Source: Polyangiaceae bacterium
GTDB taxonomy: Bacteria; Myxococcota_A; Polyangia; Polyangiales; Polyangiaceae
Assembly (NCBI GenBank): GCA_019637295.1
Contig: JAHBVX010000004.1
Location: 434,001-498,000 of the forward strand
Direction of reading: 5' to 3'
Length of the DNA stretch: 64,000 nt
The translations under genes and the position numbers were made by a program. The notes beneath the pieces were generated by a model, which did no database searches, was not told where the DNA came from, and was given only the letters and a program-made list of their open reading frames with translations. This document shows positions 52,469 through 63,374 of the stretch, piece after piece. The number at the start of each line of letters is the position of its first letter. Positions within the stretch are counted from its first letter, which is position 1.

Positions 52469-54145
52469 CTAGGGCACCGTGAAGGTCACGGTGCCGTCGA
52501 TGTGAAGATCAGGCCGGCTGAACGTCAGGTTCGGTAGGATGTTCTCGTGGCAGGCGCTGCAGTTGGTGGGCAGCGGGTGGGGCGGAGGCGGCGGCAACCC
52601 GTGGCAGCTGCCGCACGCAGCCTGCGTACCGTCGACGGTCGTCCACGAGGGCGCGGTGAGGCTCCCGCCCGAGGGGAACCCGTTGCGCGTCACGGCTCCA
52701 TGACAGGCGGTGCTCTGGCAGCTTCCGGCAGCGTACACGGGCGCCGCGCCGTGAGCCGTAGCCGCGCCGGAGAACAGCACCTCCGCCGGTCCGAAGGTGT
52801 CGACGTGCCCGCTCGAGAGCACGGTCTGGGGCACGAGGTGGCACTCGCCGCAGGGCACCGGCCGCGAGCTCGACGTACCGAGCACGTGAACCTGGTGGGC
52901 TCCCACACCTGGGGAGGTCGTCCCCGAGTTCCCCGCCAGGTCCAGCGGAGGCGCGGGGTTGGTGCTGCCGTGACACGACGTGCAAGACTCGTTCATGGAC
53001 ACGTTCACGACGCCGTCGACGTGCTTGAGACGGTCGATGATGGTCACGTTGTCCGGGCCGACCACCTCCGCATGACAGCGCGCGCAGTCCGTCATCTGCG
53101 GGTGAGGCGGCGGCGGCGGCGCGCCATGACAGCTCGTGCAACCGAGCGGTCCCGCCGTCGTCCAGAGGGGAGAGGGCGCCAGCGACGCGGGGCTCGGACC
53201 GTGACAGTGGCTGTCCGCGCAGCGCACCTCGTCTCGCTCCCACGTGGGGGTCCGGCCACCGGTCGCGGCGATGCCCGTGAAGGACACCTCCGCCACTCCG
53301 TTGGCGTGCCCCTCGCTCGCGGACGACGCGGGGACGACGTGGCACTCGCCGCAGGCGACGGGTCGACTGAACGCCCCTCCAGCGAGGTGCGCCTGGTGCG
53401 CGCCGACGCCGATCGCCGTCACCGCCTCGTTGCCGAGGGTGTCCTTGGGTGGCGCAGGATCGTCCCCGCTGCCGTGGCACTGGGTGCAGCCGCCGTCGTT
53501 CGCCTGCACGATGCCGTCCACGTGCTTCTCCGGCGCGATGATCTTGCCCGCAGCGTCAACCACCTCCGAGTGGCAGGCCACGCAACGGGTCGACTGCGGA
53601 TGCGGCGGTGAAGGGGGCAGTCCGTGACAGGTCCCGCACGCGTCTTCAGTCGAGCGCGGCGCGGTCCAGACCGCCCCCGCGCCGCTGGGCCCATGACAGT
53701 AGCTGTCGGTGCAGCGACGCGCACTGAAATCGTAGTGGGGCTGCCGGCCGTCTTTGGCGGCGAGGCTGCCGAACACGAGCTCGGCGGGTAGCTCCGTGTC
53801 GGCGTGACCCGGGGAGTCGGTGCGCGCCGGCACCAGATGACACTCGCTGCAGGCGATGGCCGCGTGATTGACTCCGGCGTTCAAGTGAATTGCGTGGGCA
53901 CCCACCCCAGGGTGACTCGACTCGGTCGCTCCCGAGAGATCGGCGGGAGGAGCAGCGCGCGCCAACGCGTCCCCCGGGCGGTCCGGATCGCCGTGACACG
54001 TGGCGCAGCGACGCAGGTCTTCGCCTGCCGGCTTGGCGCGCTGCTCGAGGCACCCGGCGGGTACGGCTGCTGCCAGCGTCGCCAGCAGCAGCGTGGCCCC
54101 GAGGCCAACTTGCGCCAAGAGGCCCTTCGGCGGTCGCTCAACCAT
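52469..54145 (-). CDS. Multihaem cytochrome c lipoprotein with 12 CxxCH and 3 Cx4CH motifs
   Basis: A 558-residue exported cytochrome with a hydrophobic lead ending AAVPAGC (probable lipobox). I count twelve CxxCH motifs (CATCH, CSECH, CGTCH, CVACH, CTQCH, CGECH, CTSCH, CARCH, CTSCH, CGECH, CGSCH, CSACH) plus three longer CxxxxCH forms (CTDSYCH, CADSHCH, CQSTACH), so up to fifteen haems. The chain is three repeats of about 175 residues, each with GVGAHxxH, a CxECH and a Cx4CH, like Geobacter C4xCH/CxxCH cytochromes. The ATG overlaps the upstream cytochrome stop by 8 bases. It is most likely the outer, surface-facing cytochrome of a porin-cytochrome complex. Confidence 0.88.
   Translation of the reverse strand: MVERPPKGLLAQVGLGATLLLATLAAAVPAGCLEQRAKPAGEDLRRCATCHGDPDRPGDALARAAPPADLSGATESSHPGVGAHAIHLNAGVNHAAIACSECHLVPARTDSPGHADTELPAELVFGSLAAKDGRQPHYDFSARRCTDSYCHGPSGAGAVWTAPRSTEDACGTCHGLPPSPPHPQSTRCVACHSEVVDAAGKIIAPEKHVDGIVQANDGGCTQCHGSGDDPAPPKDTLGNEAVTAIGVGAHQAHLAGGAFSRPVACGECHVVPASSASEGHANGVAEVSFTGIAATGGRTPTWERDEVRCADSHCHGPSPASLAPSPLWTTAGPLGCTSCHGAPPPPPHPQMTDCARCHAEVVGPDNVTIIDRLKHVDGVVNVSMNESCTSCHGSTNPAPPLDLAGNSGTTSPGVGAHQVHVLGTSSSRPVPCGECHLVPQTVLSSGHVDTFGPAEVLFSGAATAHGAAPVYAAGSCQSTACHGAVTRNGFPSGGSLTAPSWTTVDGTQAACGSCHGLPPPPPHPLPTNCSACHENILPNLTFSRPDLHIDGTVTFTVP
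52473..52495. terminator. Perfect hairpin between uppS and the cytochrome gene
   Basis: GGCACCGTGA (52473-52482) and TCACGGTGCC (52486-52495) form a ten-base perfect stem with a three-base loop. It starts 15 bases after the uppS stop and covers the last codons of the convergent cytochrome gene, so it may stop uppS transcripts. There is no T-run. Confidence 0.5.
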
Positions 54146-55178
54146 GGCAGTACCCACACATCTGTGCGCCCGTCCCCTGGGAGCTCTGCCAACCATTGGG
54201 ATGAGGGTTGCCTCCGTACGCACCCACCTTGTGACAGCGGATGCAGTTGGTCGCGGGGCCCTGCTCGTGACAGCCCGCGCACGCGACGATGTCACGCCGC
54301 GCTTCGCGGCCGTGGAAGCTGCGAGACGCGGTGTTGGTGCCTACCCAGCCGGGCGGATGGGGATTGCGACTGCCGGCGCGGTTGGCGCTCACTCCGCGAG
54401 CGACGTGGCACCCGTCGCAGCTCTGCACGGTGTGGCAGCTCAGGCACCGCGCCGGCTGAGACTGCGCCTCGATGGCGTGGCGCACCATGAAGTCGCCGCG
54501 GTGGACGAAACTTCGCTCGAGCTGCTCGGGTCGCCGTCGCTCGATGGAGAGGCCCTGGGTCATGTCGTGGCAGTCATCGCACTGCGCCTGCGAGTGGCAG
54601 CCTTGGCAGAGTTGCATGTTCTGGGTGGCGAGCTGCCCGTGGCGCTTCGCGAAGCTGGCGTCGTGCCGTAGAAACGTCTTGGGCAACGTCTTGCGCAGCT
54701 CCAGCTGCGAATGACACGGCGTGCACACGCCCTGGTCCCACTGCTGTTGGTGCTCGTGACACGAGAAGCACTGCGCCATGGGTGGTAGCGACGGCTTGTC
54801 CGGCTCCACGACGCCAGCGTGGCACGGAGCGCACTGGCCTTTGATGCCCTTCATGGTCAAGTGCTGATCGTGATTGAACGTGATGGGCCCGGAGACCCGC
54901 GCGGGCTTCACGTCGAGCACCGCGAGGGCTTCGTGGGCGTCGTCGCGATGACAGCTCGTGCACAGCGATTGATCGGGCAACTTGTGCGCGCGGTCCTTCT
55001 CGGACACCACGTGACAGCTGTTGCAGGATAGACACGCGGGCTTGCCCGGAGTGCCACATTCGAGTCCGGCGAGGTGCACCAGGTGCGGGAAGCGCGGGGC
55101 CGCCCGGTCGGAGCACGCGCCGGCGACCAGCGCGCCCGCGAGCGCCACGACGAGGAGCACCAGGAGCCGGTGACTCAC
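54138..55178 (-). CDS. 12-haem cytochrome c lipoprotein
   Basis: A 346-residue exported cytochrome with a signal ending LVAGAC (probable lipobox). Twelve CxxCH haem sites are visible (CNSCH, CTSCH, CAPCH, CFSCH, CTPCH, CQGCH, CDDCH, CLSCH, CDGCH, CAGCH, CIRCH, CGYCH), about one haem per 29 residues. FNHDQHLTMKG is a c7/c3-type distal-histidine pattern. The GTG start overlaps the porin stop (GTGA), and its stop lies inside the next cytochrome start. It probably carries electrons within or on the periplasmic side of the barrel. Confidence 0.9.
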   Translation of the reverse strand: MSHRLLVLLVVALAGALVAGACSDRAAPRFPHLVHLAGLECGTPGKPACLSCNSCHVVSEKDRAHKLPDQSLCTSCHRDDAHEALAVLDVKPARVSGPITFNHDQHLTMKGIKGQCAPCHAGVVEPDKPSLPPMAQCFSCHEHQQQWDQGVCTPCHSQLELRKTLPKTFLRHDASFAKRHGQLATQNMQLCQGCHSQAQCDDCHDMTQGLSIERRRPEQLERSFVHRGDFMVRHAIEAQSQPARCLSCHTVQSCDGCHVARGVSANRAGSRNPHPPGWVGTNTASRSFHGREARRDIVACAGCHEQGPATNCIRCHKVGAYGGNPHPNGWQSSQGTGAQMCGYCHG

Positions 55179-56557
55179 AGTGCACCTCGCCGGGGAGCGA
55201 GATCGAAATCGTAAGCCGCGCGCAGCAACGTCTGCGCGTCGAAGCGCGCGTAGGGAGACTGCGCTAGCGAGCTTCCCCAGAGGACCCTCAGCGCCTCGCT
55301 CAGCTGGTAACTCAGGGTGCCCGCCAGCACGCTGCTGGTGCTGTGCCGCTCGATGGCTTCATCGTACAGGTAGCCGTAGACCTCCACGGTGCCGGTGAAG
55401 GCAGGGCTGAACCGCTGCGCGACGGACGCGCGAAGCGCGTGGTAGCCGTTGTCCACGGCCAGCACGCGGGTGAAGCCGAGCCGCGCGACGGTGCTCTGCG
55501 CTACCCCCGGAGCAACCCGCACCCCGAGCTCACCCCGCGCGCCGCGACGCGTGTCATCGTAGAGCTGCACGGCACCTGCTCCGTCGAAAGTGACCTCGGG
55601 CAGCGCGCGAAATACCAGTTGTGTCCCCGCTTCGTCGTAGCCGTCGGTGCTGAAGACGCTGAGCACGGACTGTCGCGATAGGTACAGCGCCGGCTCGGTG
55701 CGGCGCAGCTCGACGGAGAGATCGAGCGGCCTTGCCGGCGTCGTGTCCACGAACACTCGCGCGTCCGCGAACCGCCTCGCGTCGAGCTCCATCAGGCTGA
55801 AGCCGCCCACGGACACCGCGGCAGACGGCTGGTAGCGGGCATCTGCGGCGAGGTTTCGGCGACTGACGCCGCCGGTCTCGTGTTGCTCGTGGAAGGACAA
55901 TCCAGCGAACCCACCGTGGCGCGCGTAGCCGATGCGACCGCCCGCCAGCCAGTGCCCAGAGCGGTCGGGCTCCGGGAGCGCGTTGGGCTCGATGAGCAAG
56001 GAGTCGTAGGCGGCGCCCAGGTGGTGATAGCCCGGGCGCGCGTCCCAGCGCGGCAACACGGTGAAGCCGCCGTAGGCATCGGCGTCGAAGCCGCTGCCCA
56101 GAGCAGCGCCAGCGCGCGCGCCGTCGAAGCGCGCGTAGCGCGCGGCTCCTCCCGCGACGAGCTGCCGACCCAGGCGCACGGCGAGCGGTCCGTGGCGCAG
56201 TCGCACATTCGCGCTCTGCACGTCACCGTCCGTCCGGCGCGTGGACTCGGGGTCGCCAATGAACACGCTTCCCCAAGCGGACAGCTCGATGTCCAGGGAG
56301 TCTTCGCCCAGCGGGCCGTCGAGATCGAGCGCGCGCAGAGAGACGTACTGGTGCATCGGCGCGACCGTGTGCTCCGACACCAACGCGCCGCCCGGCCCGG
56401 GCATGAGCGCGCGACGAAAGAGCTGCAGGGTAGTCTCCCCGTGCGCGATCAGTTGATGGCGATCCGCGGTCGGCTCCTCCGCGGGCGTGTCCGCGCCGGC
56501 CTCCGGCGCCGCGAGCAGCAGCGCCATCGCGGCATTTGTCACGTGACGAGCCCGCAT
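55175..56557 (-). CDS. Outer-membrane beta-barrel, probable porin of a porin-cytochrome complex
   Basis: A 460-residue protein with a signal peptide (about 1-22) and many amphipathic strands to the end (VRLRHGPLAVRLGRQLV, GHWLAGGRIGYARHGGFAG, GELGVRVAPGVAQSTVARLGF, FTGTVEVYGYLY, LRAAYDFDL). The C-terminus lacks the usual terminal aromatic residue. The size resembles Geobacter OmbB-type barrels more than the longer MtrB. Overlap with two multihaem cytochrome genes is the main evidence for its role. Starting at ATG 56557 gives a clean signal sequence. It follows the TPR/kinase pair by 72 bases. Confidence 0.78.
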   Translation of the reverse strand: MRARHVTNAAMALLLAAPEAGADTPAEEPTADRHQLIAHGETTLQLFRRALMPGPGGALVSEHTVAPMHQYVSLRALDLDGPLGEDSLDIELSAWGSVFIGDPESTRRTDGDVQSANVRLRHGPLAVRLGRQLVAGGAARYARFDGARAGAALGSGFDADAYGGFTVLPRWDARPGYHHLGAAYDSLLIEPNALPEPDRSGHWLAGGRIGYARHGGFAGLSFHEQHETGGVSRRNLAADARYQPSAAVSVGGFSLMELDARRFADARVFVDTTPARPLDLSVELRRTEPALYLSRQSVLSVFSTDGYDEAGTQLVFRALPEVTFDGAGAVQLYDDTRRGARGELGVRVAPGVAQSTVARLGFTRVLAVDNGYHALRASVAQRFSPAFTGTVEVYGYLYDEAIERHSTSSVLAGTLSYQLSEALRVLWGSSLAQSPYARFDAQTLLRAAYDFDLAPRRGAL

Positions 56558-59054: not shown

Positions 59055-59332
59055 GGGGGCCAAGGATGAGAACGCGCGGAGGCCGGCTGACCTTTCGCAC
59101 GAAGGTTGTACGTTCAGCTTCGCGCAGGTTTCTACGAAAAGCCCGAAAACGGTAGGCGCCTGGCTGACATGGAGGTCCATGTAGCCTCCCCTCCGGCGGC
59201 AAGCGCCGAGGTAGGTAACCCGGGGCCAAAGGCGCACTTCATCGCACGAGGTGCGACCTATCTGCCACCCACGGGGAAAGTACGAAGCAGGGCGGGAGTA
59301 GGATTGCCCGCAACCCTACTCGGAGGTACTCG

Positions 59333-59626
59333 ATGCATCGCTTCGTTCGCCCGGCGGCCAAGGTGGCACTCCTGGGCACGCTATTGGCCGGATCCTTCTA
59401 CGCTGGCGCCGCCTACGCGGCTGATCCGCGGCTCGATCAGGCCGACGCCAACGTCGAGAAGGCGATCGTCCTGCTCGAGGCGGCCGAGAACCCCGGCGTC
59501 AACCCGCCCTTCGGCGGGCACCGTAAGGTGGCCGTGGCGTCCCTCAAGCTGGCGCGAAAGCAGATTGCCAAGGCCAAGCAGTACGCGGACAATCCGCCCA
59601 AGCCCAAGCCCAAGCCCAAGCCGTAA
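59333..59626 (+). CDS. Small secreted protein with KP-repeat tail
   Basis: A 97-residue protein with a signal peptide (1-30, ending GAAYAAD) and one helical domain (LDQADANVEKAIVLLEAA, then HRKVAVASLKLARKQIAKAKQYA) that ends in a Lys-Pro repeat (KPKPKPKP). GGAGG six bases upstream is a strong ribosome site. The helical part could be a small coiled-coil or polymer-binding module in the periplasm. Unknown family. It is followed by the SUMF1 lipoprotein gene 34 bases later. Confidence 0.75.
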   Translation: MHRFVRPAAKVALLGTLLAGSFYAGAAYAADPRLDQADANVEKAIVLLEAAENPGVNPPFGGHRKVAVASLKLARKQIAKAKQYADNPPKPKPKPKP

Positions 59627-59635
59627 CACCGAGGG

Positions 59636-59654
59636 TCGGGCAGGAGGCGCCCGA
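59636..59654 (+). promoter_or_regulatory. RNA hairpin displaying an AGGAGG ribosome site
   Basis: TCGGGC (59636-59641) and GCCCGA (59649-59654) pair around the loop AGGAGGC, which holds a full Shine-Dalgarno sequence. The ATG at 59661 is 13 bases beyond the SD in the linear sequence, so folding the stem would shorten the effective distance. Confidence 0.35.
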
Positions 59655-59660
59655 GCCCAA

Positions 59661-60779
59661 ATGTCCATGTGGTCCCGTCTCTCGCGCCTGAGCGTCGTCG
59701 TATGGCCCGCTCTGCTCAGCGGCTGCGTGGTCTCCTTCGACGGCTATGAGTACGATCCGTCCGGCAGCGGCGGCACCCCGGACGCCAGCGCTGGGGCGGG
59801 AGGCGGGGCGGGAAGCGGAGGGAGCGCTGGGGCCGGCGGCGGCAGCGGCGGACTGGCCGGCGCAGGTGGCGCCGTGGGCGGCAGCGCCGGAGCCGGCGGC
59901 GCTACAGGCGGCACGGGTGGTACCGGCGGAGGCACGGGTGGTACCGGCGGAGGCACGGGTGGTACCGGCGGCGGCACGGGTGGTACCGGCGGAGGCACGG
60001 GTGGTACCGGCGGCGCCACGGGTGGTACCGGCGGAGGCACGGGTGGTACCGGCGGCGCCACGGGTGGTACCGGCGGCGCCACGGGTGGCACCGGCGGCGT
60101 CGTTACGTGCCCCGAAGTCCCCGGCACCGCGCTGATGCGCGACGTACCGAAACCGGGTGGCGGGATCTACTGCATCGATCGCACCGAGGTGACGCAGTCG
60201 CAGTACGCCGCGTTCCTCTCGGCGAGTCCCAGCACCGCGGGACAAGTCGCTGGCTGCTCGACCAACTCGAGCTACACACCAACCAACTGCGGGCAGCCCT
60301 TCGAGCCCGCAGGCAAGGCCAACGATCCGGTGTTCTGCGTGGACTGGTGTGACGCCTACGCGTACTGCGCGTTCGTGGGCAAGCGGCTGTGCGGCAGCGT
60401 CGACGGCGGCTCGCTGGCGGCGACCGATCGCACCAATCCGAGCAAGAGCCAGTGGCACCGCGCCTGTACGATGGCGGGCCAGCGCCAGTTCCCGTACGGC
60501 TCGGTCTTCAGCACCAACGCGTGCAACGGTGCGGAAAGCTCGACCACGCTCACCATCCCGGTCGGGGACAAGGCGACCTGTCAGGGCGGCTACAGCAACA
60601 TCTTCGACATGAGCGGCAACGTCCGGGAGTGGGAGGACGCCTGCAGCGGCACCACCTGCCCCGAACGAGGCGGCGGCTACCTCGACTTCGAGGCGGCGCT
60701 GCGCTGCGACTCGGCGGCGTTGGTGCAACGCATGAGCGTGCACAAGGAGCGCGGCTTTCGCTGCTGCGCCGACCCGTGA
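59661..60779 (+). CDS. SUMF1/formylglycine-generating-enzyme-domain lipoprotein
   Basis: A 372-residue lipoprotein (lipobox LLSGC), with a very long Gly/Thr/Ala linker (about 30-150, largely a 21-bp repeat), then an SUMF1/FGE-sulfatase domain: GGGIYCIDRTEVTQSQYAAFL, VFCVDWCDAYAYCAFVGKRLC and IFDMSGNVREWEDAC with RGFRCC at the end. The domain text fits the broad family found in many myxobacterial surface proteins. The copper-binding cysteine pair of true FGE is not evident, so enzymatic activity is doubtful. Its stop overlaps the phosphodiesterase start. Confidence 0.82.
   Translation: MSMWSRLSRLSVVVWPALLSGCVVSFDGYEYDPSGSGGTPDASAGAGGGAGSGGSAGAGGGSGGLAGAGGAVGGSAGAGGATGGTGGTGGGTGGTGGGTGGTGGGTGGTGGGTGGTGGATGGTGGGTGGTGGATGGTGGATGGTGGVVTCPEVPGTALMRDVPKPGGGIYCIDRTEVTQSQYAAFLSASPSTAGQVAGCSTNSSYTPTNCGQPFEPAGKANDPVFCVDWCDAYAYCAFVGKRLCGSVDGGSLAATDRTNPSKSQWHRACTMAGQRQFPYGSVFSTNACNGAESSTTLTIPVGDKATCQGGYSNIFDMSGNVREWEDACSGTTCPERGGGYLDFEAALRCDSAALVQRMSVHKERGFRCCADP
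59910..60098 (+). repeat. 21-bp tandem repeat (about nine copies) with GGTACC in most units
   Basis: Nine copies of a 21-base unit (GGCACGGGTGGTACCGGCGG plus A or C) encode GTGGTGG units. Variation is mostly GGA/GGC/GCC at the last codons. It is the longest tandem repeat in the window. Confidence 0.85.
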
Positions 60780-61838: not shown

Positions 61839-63374
61839 ATGGGACTCTCCTCGCTGGCCGCACGGAGCGGCGCTCGGCTCGCCCTGACGCTGCTGGCAGC
61901 CGGCGCCCCGCTGCTGCTCGCCTGTTCGGAGCAGGATGCGAAGCCCCGCTCCCGGCTGGGACCCCTCGACGATCCCTGGGACCACGGCGTGCGCCTGCCC
62001 GAGGCACCACAGCTCGAGGGCGACGAAGTGGCAGGTCGCGACACGCTGCTCCACGGCAACTACATGAGCTGCGGCATCCCGTGGCGGCTGTGGACCGATC
62101 CCAACCTGGGCTCGACGTTCCAGGCGGCGCTCGGCTCGAGTCGCGAGCCGCTGGCGGGCCGCACCGGCAACAACGCCGACCTTCCCTACAACCTCACGGC
62201 GTTCACCGCCGCCGACGGCACGGAGGTCGTGAACGCCAACTGCCTGACGTGCCACGCAAGCAAGTTCGACGGCGAGCTGATCCTGGGTCTCGGTGATCCG
62301 ACCGTAGACTTCACCGGGGGCCTGGGCGGCGGCCCCGCCGTGAGCGCCGCGCTGCTCGACCTGCTCGGGCTGAATGACTCGGAGCGTGAGCACATGGAGA
62401 AGGTGCTCCGCATCGCGAACATCATCGGACCCGAGACGGTGATGCGGACGGTAGGCAACAACCCTGCCGAAGCGCTCGCGATCGTACTGTCGCTCCATCA
62501 CGACCGGGACACCCTCGCCTGGAGCGACGAGCGGCTCATGGAGCTGATCGTGCGCGACGAGCACGGTCAGCCGATCGCCGATCCGAAGCTCACCTCGGAT
62601 CCGCCGCCCTGGTGGCGCTCTGGCAAGAAGAACGCGCTGTTCTACAACGGCATGGCGCGCGGGGACCACCGCGGCACCATGGCGTATGCCACGTCGATCT
62701 GCGTGGACGACGTCGCCGAGGCCAAGCGCGTAGATGGACTGTTCGTGGACATCCAGGCGTTTCTGCGCAGCTTGGAGGCGCCCAAGTATCCGCGCGGCAT
62801 CGACGCCGACCTAGCGGACACCGGCCGGCAGCTCTTCCGACGGGACTGCGCGGGGTGTCACGGCAAGTACGGCGCCGACGGGGGCGAAGACGCCTACCCC
62901 AACCTGCTGTTTCCCCTCGACGTGATCGGCACCGATCCCGTCGTCGCCAACGGTGGCGTGATCCACGCCCCCGAGCTCGTGGATTGGTACAACGACTCGT
63001 TCTACGGAACCATCACGCCGATGGTGCCGAACGATCCCTTCCCTGGCTACGTCGCGCCGCCGCTGGATGGCGTTTGGGCGACCGCTCCGTTCTTGCACAA
63101 CGGCTCCGTGCCCACCATCGAACTCGTGTTGGACAGCACGGCTCGCCCCAAGTACTGGAAGCGCGTGGACTACGACTCCAGCAACTTCGACGAGGACGCG
63201 CTCGGCTGGCCCTGGCTCGGGGTGCCCTATGGCCAGGCGGACGCTCCCGAGGCGGAGCGCAAGTTCATCTACGACACGACTCAGTGGAGCCAGTCGAACG
63301 CCGGACATACCTTCGGCGATCACCTGTCCTTCGACGAGCGCCGCGCGGTCATCGAGTACCTGAAGACGCTCTGA
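61839..63374 (+). CDS. Di-haem c-type cytochrome lipoprotein (RoxA-like)
   Basis: A 511-residue lipoprotein (lipobox PLLLAC). Two haem sites are seen: CLTCH (135-139) and CAGCH (337-341). The stretch VAPPLDGVWATAPFLHNGSVPTIELVL is typical of RoxA/MauG-like di-haem proteins that include rubber oxygenases and cytochrome peroxidases. Dependence on peroxide, O2 or a polymer cannot be decided here. It is shorter than known RoxA. It lies 79 bases after the GDPD gene on the same strand. Confidence 0.83.
   Translation: MGLSSLAARSGARLALTLLAAGAPLLLACSEQDAKPRSRLGPLDDPWDHGVRLPEAPQLEGDEVAGRDTLLHGNYMSCGIPWRLWTDPNLGSTFQAALGSSREPLAGRTGNNADLPYNLTAFTAADGTEVVNANCLTCHASKFDGELILGLGDPTVDFTGGLGGGPAVSAALLDLLGLNDSEREHMEKVLRIANIIGPETVMRTVGNNPAEALAIVLSLHHDRDTLAWSDERLMELIVRDEHGQPIADPKLTSDPPPWWRSGKKNALFYNGMARGDHRGTMAYATSICVDDVAEAKRVDGLFVDIQAFLRSLEAPKYPRGIDADLADTGRQLFRRDCAGCHGKYGADGGEDAYPNLLFPLDVIGTDPVVANGGVIHAPELVDWYNDSFYGTITPMVPNDPFPGYVAPPLDGVWATAPFLHNGSVPTIELVLDSTARPKYWKRVDYDSSNFDEDALGWPWLGVPYGQADAPEAERKFIYDTTQWSQSNAGHTFGDHLSFDERRAVIEYLKTL

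Follow-up and report, generated by a model that had tools for sequence, protein, structure and literature searches.

A probable porin-cytochrome conduit with a modular surface cytochrome in a Polyangiaceae genome, and its relatives among Myxococcota

In Shewanella, the MtrCAB conduit carries 10 + 10 haems and its barrel protein, MtrB, has 26 strands. Members of Polyangia are familiar from soil isolates with an aerobic, predatory way of life, and extracellular electron transfer (EET) has rarely been considered for them. Conduits of this kind have been defined as comprising a periplasmic multi-haem cytochrome, an integral outer-membrane β-barrel and an outer-membrane redox lipoprotein (PMC6148476), and in a survey three or four porin families were recognised as independent, with MtrB, OmbB, ExtB/E and ExtI as their basis (PMC7399161). 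The OmbB-OmaB-OmcB set bears 8 + 12 haems (PMC4589669). Within Myxococcota, a 2014 study reported a Pcc cluster of two genes for Anaeromyxobacter (group IV, e.g. Adeh_3392), whose cytochrome has 12 or 14 haem motifs and 338-344 aa; its abundance was higher on Mn(IV) than on Fe(III)-citrate (PMC4245776). Secreted multi-haem proteins have been noted in metagenome-assembled genomes (MAGs) of the phylum (PMC11495043). Searches of the open-access literature returned no description of a conduit in Polyangia or Polyangiaceae; paywalled work may exist. Here, a 64,000-nucleotide stretch of a Polyangiaceae genome (contig JAHBVX010000004.1; referred to below as the window) was analysed, in which three overlapping genes specify a putative outer-membrane barrel, a 12-haem cytochrome and a second cytochrome with 15 haem-binding motifs. 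Judging from sequence and structural models, this trio is likely to be a porin-cytochrome conduit carrying electrons across the outer membrane.

All three genes lie on the minus strand, a point left unstated in the first-pass annotation of the window. The first (56557-55175) encodes a porin-like scaffold of 460 aa, with a signal peptide followed by a predicted 22-strand barrel. Its stop codon shares 4 bases (GTGA; 55175-55178) with the GTG start of the second gene (55178-54138; P0002), which specifies a 346-aa c-type cytochrome lipoprotein with 12 CxxCH and no Cx4CH motifs. This in turn overlaps by 8 bases (ATGGTTGA; 54138-54145) the third gene (54145-52469; P0003), specifying a 558-aa cytochrome lipoprotein with 12 CxxCH and three Cx4CH motifs. 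A recount agreed with the first-pass annotation on the barrel length, both overlaps and the motif numbers. In most homologous loci the first overlap is also -4 and the second -8 or -11; translational coupling of the barrel and 12-haem genes through the 4-base overlap is likely from this arrangement. Each of the three genes showed the codon-position GC of coding sequence (GC3 0.84, against 0.69 for the GC content of the window), and when the 12-haem and 15-motif proteins were shuffled 2000 times, CxxCH motifs arose on average 0.16 and 0.11 times, with maxima of 3 and 2, respectively. Together with a conserved paralogue and the conserved linkage of the genes (see below), the shuffles rule out chance or artefact as the origin of the motifs.

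The 12-haem protein is of the c7 type (Cytochrome_C7, PF14522; 37 bits, cut-off 24.8). In 20 out of 20 homologues, all 12 CxxCH motifs, the lipobox cysteine and 11 further histidines were invariant. Invariant CxxCH motifs accompanied by 11 distal histidines form the pattern expected of a bis-histidine haem chain, and the protein may serve as the transmembrane wire inside the barrel. The lipobox cysteine (C22; 55113-55115, minus strand) was invariant in two homologue alignments, and that of the 15-motif protein (C32; 54050-54052, minus strand) in the alignment of its own family, in line with the earlier designation of both as lipoproteins. The 15-motif protein matched the CxxxxCH/CxxCH domain TIGR01904 (105.7 bits, cut-off 27) over three stretches, and internal repeat alignment resolved it into three tandem units of ~165 aa with five motifs each (unit 1, 53510-54019; unit 2, 53006-53509; unit 3, 52472-53005; all on the minus strand). 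Proteins with this CxxxxCH...CxxCH pattern (TIGR01904/PF09698) were first defined in Geobacter. Searches of the 15-motif protein against solved structures returned no relevant match. Its three Cx4CH motifs are CTDSYCH, CADSHCH and CQSTACH; since Cx4CH binds haem in the cytochrome c3 of Desulfovibrio, a full set of 15 haems is plausible. With C32 and its 15 motifs, the protein corresponds to the redox lipoprotein of the conduit definition (PMC6148476), and it is proposed to be the outer-surface cytochrome, its exposure at the surface being the step we infer.

The barrel protein matched no Pfam or NCBIfam family at E ≤ 1, and a profile of the barrel family matched no PDB chain, that of MtrB included. 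Structure prediction (AlphaFold2, 20 homologues) gave a barrel of 22 strands (pLDDT 80, pTM 0.74), and Foldseek matched the model to outer-membrane barrels, as expected for the integral β-barrel component of a conduit (PMC6148476). The ideal backbone radius of a 22-strand barrel is ~20 Å, compared to ~23.5 Å for one of 26 strands such as MtrB; with this geometry, the earlier concern that the barrel might be too narrow to admit a cytochrome was not borne out in what is a model of the monomer only. Two long loops would face the extracellular side if the barrel termini are periplasmic: residues 167-202 (55952-56059, minus strand; pLDDT < 50 over 170-189), with a column conservation of 0.67, and residues 288-306 (EPALYLSRQSVLSVFSTDG; 55640-55696, minus strand; pLDDT < 50 over 291-303), with 0.79, versus 0.58 for the protein overall. 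The latter is the most conserved of the long barrel loops. Both were left unplaced by the monomer model and are candidate cytochrome contacts.

Judged by its genes, the trio agrees with the published definition of a conduit except in one respect: the definition asks for a periplasmic multi-haem cytochrome (PMC6148476), and the 12-haem candidate is itself a lipoprotein by its invariant cysteine. A similar layout is that of the OmbB-OmaB-OmcB and OmbC-OmaC-OmcC sets of Geobacter sulfurreducens, where barrel, inner cytochrome and surface cytochrome are encoded in one operon and in identical order; this is a likeness of composition only, the OmbB-OmaB-OmcB set having 8 + 12 haems against 12 + 15 motifs in the window, and no surface protein built, as here, of three five-motif repeats. 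The MtrCAB conduit of Shewanella would work in a similar manner, with a barrel-sheathed haem wire and a surface multi-haem lipoprotein, but it differs in gene order and haem counts and has the larger barrel (26 rather than 22 strands). The first-pass annotation had equated the composition of the trio with these two systems; the association of a barrel with two multi-haem cytochromes stands, but the haem counts differ, both cytochromes of the trio are lipoproteins and no Mtr family was matched. At the profile level the barrel was rejected as a member of MtrB/PioB (TIGR03509, PF11854), no family being returned at E ≤ 1. The 12-haem protein gave only a short match to QrcA and one to a paired-CXXCH family, both below cut-off, and was not assigned to MtrA/DmsE (TIGR03508); nor was the 15-motif protein assigned to OmcA/MtrC (TIGR03507), whose representative in this genome lies on another contig (C1). 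The ExtABCD and ExtEFG sets of Geobacter, likened here by description alone, also combine a dodecahaem cytochrome, a barrel (of 18 or 21 strands) and outer lipoprotein cytochromes (PMC6148476), but their outer proteins have 5 and 12 haems and their gene order is different. Also compared by description, the Pcc cluster of Anaeromyxobacter comes from the same phylum and places a barrel beside a 12/14-haem cytochrome of 338-344 aa (12 haems and 346 aa in the window); it was reported without a surface cytochrome, whereas the window trio adds the 15-motif lipoprotein.

The first-pass annotation had proposed a search for the trio in other myxobacteria and had called its presence in a myxobacterium unexpected. 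The search found homologous barrel-cytochrome pairs in other genomes of Myxococcota: the barrel was present in 16 genomes among 59 relatives and in 71 out of 380 evenly sampled Myxococcota genomes (58 of the 288 of high quality), and the 12-haem family, counting strong and remote matches, in 188 of the 380. Since Anaeromyxobacter already has its Pcc cluster (PMC4245776) and many myxobacteria carry remote versions in their genomes, a conduit here is less unexpected than was claimed. A contig scan with the closer barrel set yielded 20 loci, all from uncultured MAGs labelled Polyangiaceae, Polyangia, Sorangium sp., Myxococcales or Deltaproteobacteria; the isolate names of several close-match MAGs point to groundwater, fen or lake samples. 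An 11-14-haem cytochrome adjoined the barrel in every locus inspected, near or remote, and a CxxCH/Cx4CH cytochrome accompanied it in nearly all. The motif counts of the latter (CxxCH + Cx4CH) were mostly multiples: 4+1, 8+2, 12+3, 16+4, 20+5, and 28+7 or 28+8. The number of five-motif units in this TIGR01904-type protein beside the same barrel thus ranges in Myxococcota from 1 to at least 7, with lengths of up to ~1600 residues (loci L092-L098 and others), and the surface protein therefore seems to gain or lose whole five-haem units; some remote members (34+2, 10+2) depart from the five-unit rule.

Barrel and 12-haem protein also appear to have diverged together. Their distance matrices were strongly correlated (Mantel r = 0.91, a value from which the permutation does not remove shared ancestry), and the clade of 10 to which the window belongs had identical members in the barrel and 12-haem trees (support 99/98 and 96/94). 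In six of the nine relatives within this clade, the trio lies near genes for a 27-haem lipoprotein and a tetrahaem protein (three CxxCH, one Cx4CH), the latter matching NapC/NirT, to which the quinol dehydrogenase CymA belongs. OmcA/MtrC proteins occurred in 42 of the 71 genomes with the barrel and in 34 of the 309 others (odds ratio 11.7, P = 9 × 10–17, uncorrected for phylogeny).

Two further sets are present in the source genome (7.65 Mb in 25 contigs; completeness 98.5%). A paralogous trio on contig C1, 46-51% identical to that of the window and retaining 27 out of 27 motifs, falls in another group in both the barrel and the 12-haem trees. It is embedded in a ~20-kb cytochrome island (1568-19550 of L003; G000:C1:915000-934900) with genes for a Rieske protein, a cytochrome b, a 9-haem protein, a 34-haem protein with an NrfH-like N-terminus, the trio itself, a 4-haem protein, two NrfD-type and two iron-sulphur proteins, and a decahaem cytochrome of the OmcA/MtrC family (412 bits, cut-off 209). 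The third set, a remote one, lies just to the left of the window (8772-13158 of L069; G000:C20:420000-435000) and consists of a 520-aa barrel (E = 1.6 × 10–14 with the barrel profile), a 13-haem cytochrome (E = 5.6 × 10–41) and a lipoprotein with a single Cx4CH; this type recurs in large-genome members of the same family (L114, L117, L119) and, more remotely, in L116 and L118. The 27-haem lipoprotein and a tetrahaem protein scoring above cut-off for NapC/NirT (PF03264) are encoded as a divergent pair on contig C12 (C12:1064363-1067003; 8361-11004 of L068), 57% and 68% identical, respectively, to their counterparts in a relative. With the pair on C12 as its likely partners in the inner membrane and the periplasm, the window trio is unlikely to be an orphan. 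Haem-copper oxidases are encoded as well, so EET need not be the main respiration of the cell, which is probably facultative or microaerobic.

Electrons would most likely be supplied from quinol through the NapC/CymA-type tetrahaem protein, and would cross the periplasm by way of the 27-haem lipoprotein to reach the trio. There, the 12-haem protein, held by its lipid anchor, would thread or dock from the periplasm into the 22-strand barrel sitting in the outer membrane and form a wire of bis-histidine haems. At the cell surface, the three-unit cytochrome, also lipid-anchored, would receive the electrons and pass them to a final extracellular acceptor, e.g. humics, a partner cell or a mineral of Fe(III) or Mn(IV). 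Complex formation, sidedness, outward direction and acceptor are all steps that we infer. The 22-strand barrel, the lipobox cysteines, the co-location and co-divergence seen across the phylum, and the inner-membrane and surface partners support and strengthen the conduit role proposed in the first-pass annotation. Several observations weigh against it. No inner-membrane partner is encoded beside the window trio, the genome has haem-copper oxidases, the best Foldseek matches of the barrel model were generic outer-membrane barrels with low TM-scores, and the 12-haem protein, folded by AlphaFold without haem, reached a pLDDT of only 50, so that its insertion into the barrel is a matter of deduction. 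The case is moreover built on sequence and prediction, from which the direction of electron flow cannot be read.

The same conduit might run inwards, drawing electrons from a partner cell or from Fe(II) or another mineral and passing them to quinone or the oxidases, as has been proposed for PioAB and MtoAB. The haem-copper oxidases of the genome would suit this role, inner-membrane proteins of the CymA and CbcL types have been reported or proposed to be bidirectional (PMC6295460), and the habitats of the relatives are compatible with either direction. Some mtr clusters for Fe(II) oxidation have no surface cytochrome (PMC4245776), but a large one is retained in the window set, and the OmcA/MtrC decahaem protein is encoded in the genome as well; both are more typical of outward transfer, making inward flow unlikely. 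It is considerably less probable still that the barrel admits a substrate and that the cytochromes form a terminal reductase dedicated to a soluble acceptor (an oxyanion or a halogenated or nitro compound) rather than a general wire to solids. The trio gives no identifiable acceptor, and ExtI, a conduit porin of Geobacter, has been connected with the reduction of selenite/tellurite (PMC6148476; PMC5877670); however, no gene for a catalytic-type haem enzyme or a molybdoenzyme was seen in the conserved neighbourhood, and the invariance of the 12 CxxCH motifs and of 11 distal histidines (11 ligands for 12 haems) suggests hexacoordinate transfer haems. The least credible alternative is that the window trio, as a duplicate, is decaying or has fallen silent, leaving only the C1 island trio at work: the window copy stands alone and no sigma-70-like promoter was found upstream of it (in a weak scan, uninformative for this phylum), but its motifs, its lipobox cysteines and the overlaps between its genes have all survived divergence to 46-51% identity, and its clade is a distinct one, with partners of its own that persist elsewhere in the genome.

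We tentatively propose that the trio represents a separate conduit family, restricted to Myxococcota or at least having its centre there, and one that would be independent of those built on MtrB, OmbB, ExtB/E and ExtI (the Omb and Ext sets having been compared by description). Such a family might be marked by a lipid-anchored inner wire, a surface cytochrome of 1 to at least 7 units and duplicated sets, with three conduits per cell fed by different quinol-oxidising modules.

The genes flanking the trio look unrelated to it. To the left lies a converging gene for undecaprenyl-diphosphate synthase, with a histidine kinase further out; upstream, on the same strand, are genes for a Ser/Thr kinase and a TPR-like protein, also apparently unrelated. 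On the plus strand, the window encodes a dihaem protein (61839-63374) that matches RoxA-like cytochrome c (PF21419, 79 bits) and is possibly a relative of rubber oxygenase. Another plus-strand gene (59106-60779) specifies a protein with a long Gly/Thr-rich low-complexity repeat of the GGTGGGTGGTGG type, C-terminal to which is a region resembling, by eye, a domain of the formylglycine-generating-enzyme type.

What is new here is the breadth of the family, whose trio turns up throughout the phylum in company with differing inner-membrane modules, an outer cytochrome made of repeated five-haem units and the presence of three conduit sets in one genome. The finding is less surprising for the phylum than the first-pass annotation had it, and more interesting in that breadth, in the modular surface cytochrome and in the triple presence. 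Genome screens, which at present use porins of Geobacter and Shewanella and may overlook this barrel, could be extended by the sequence family, and the variable number of five-haem units offers a natural series on wire length versus electron transfer. Should the conduit function, breathing or feeding through the outer membrane would be open to the uncultured Polyangiaceae of groundwater and sediment, and perhaps to many other myxobacteria as well.

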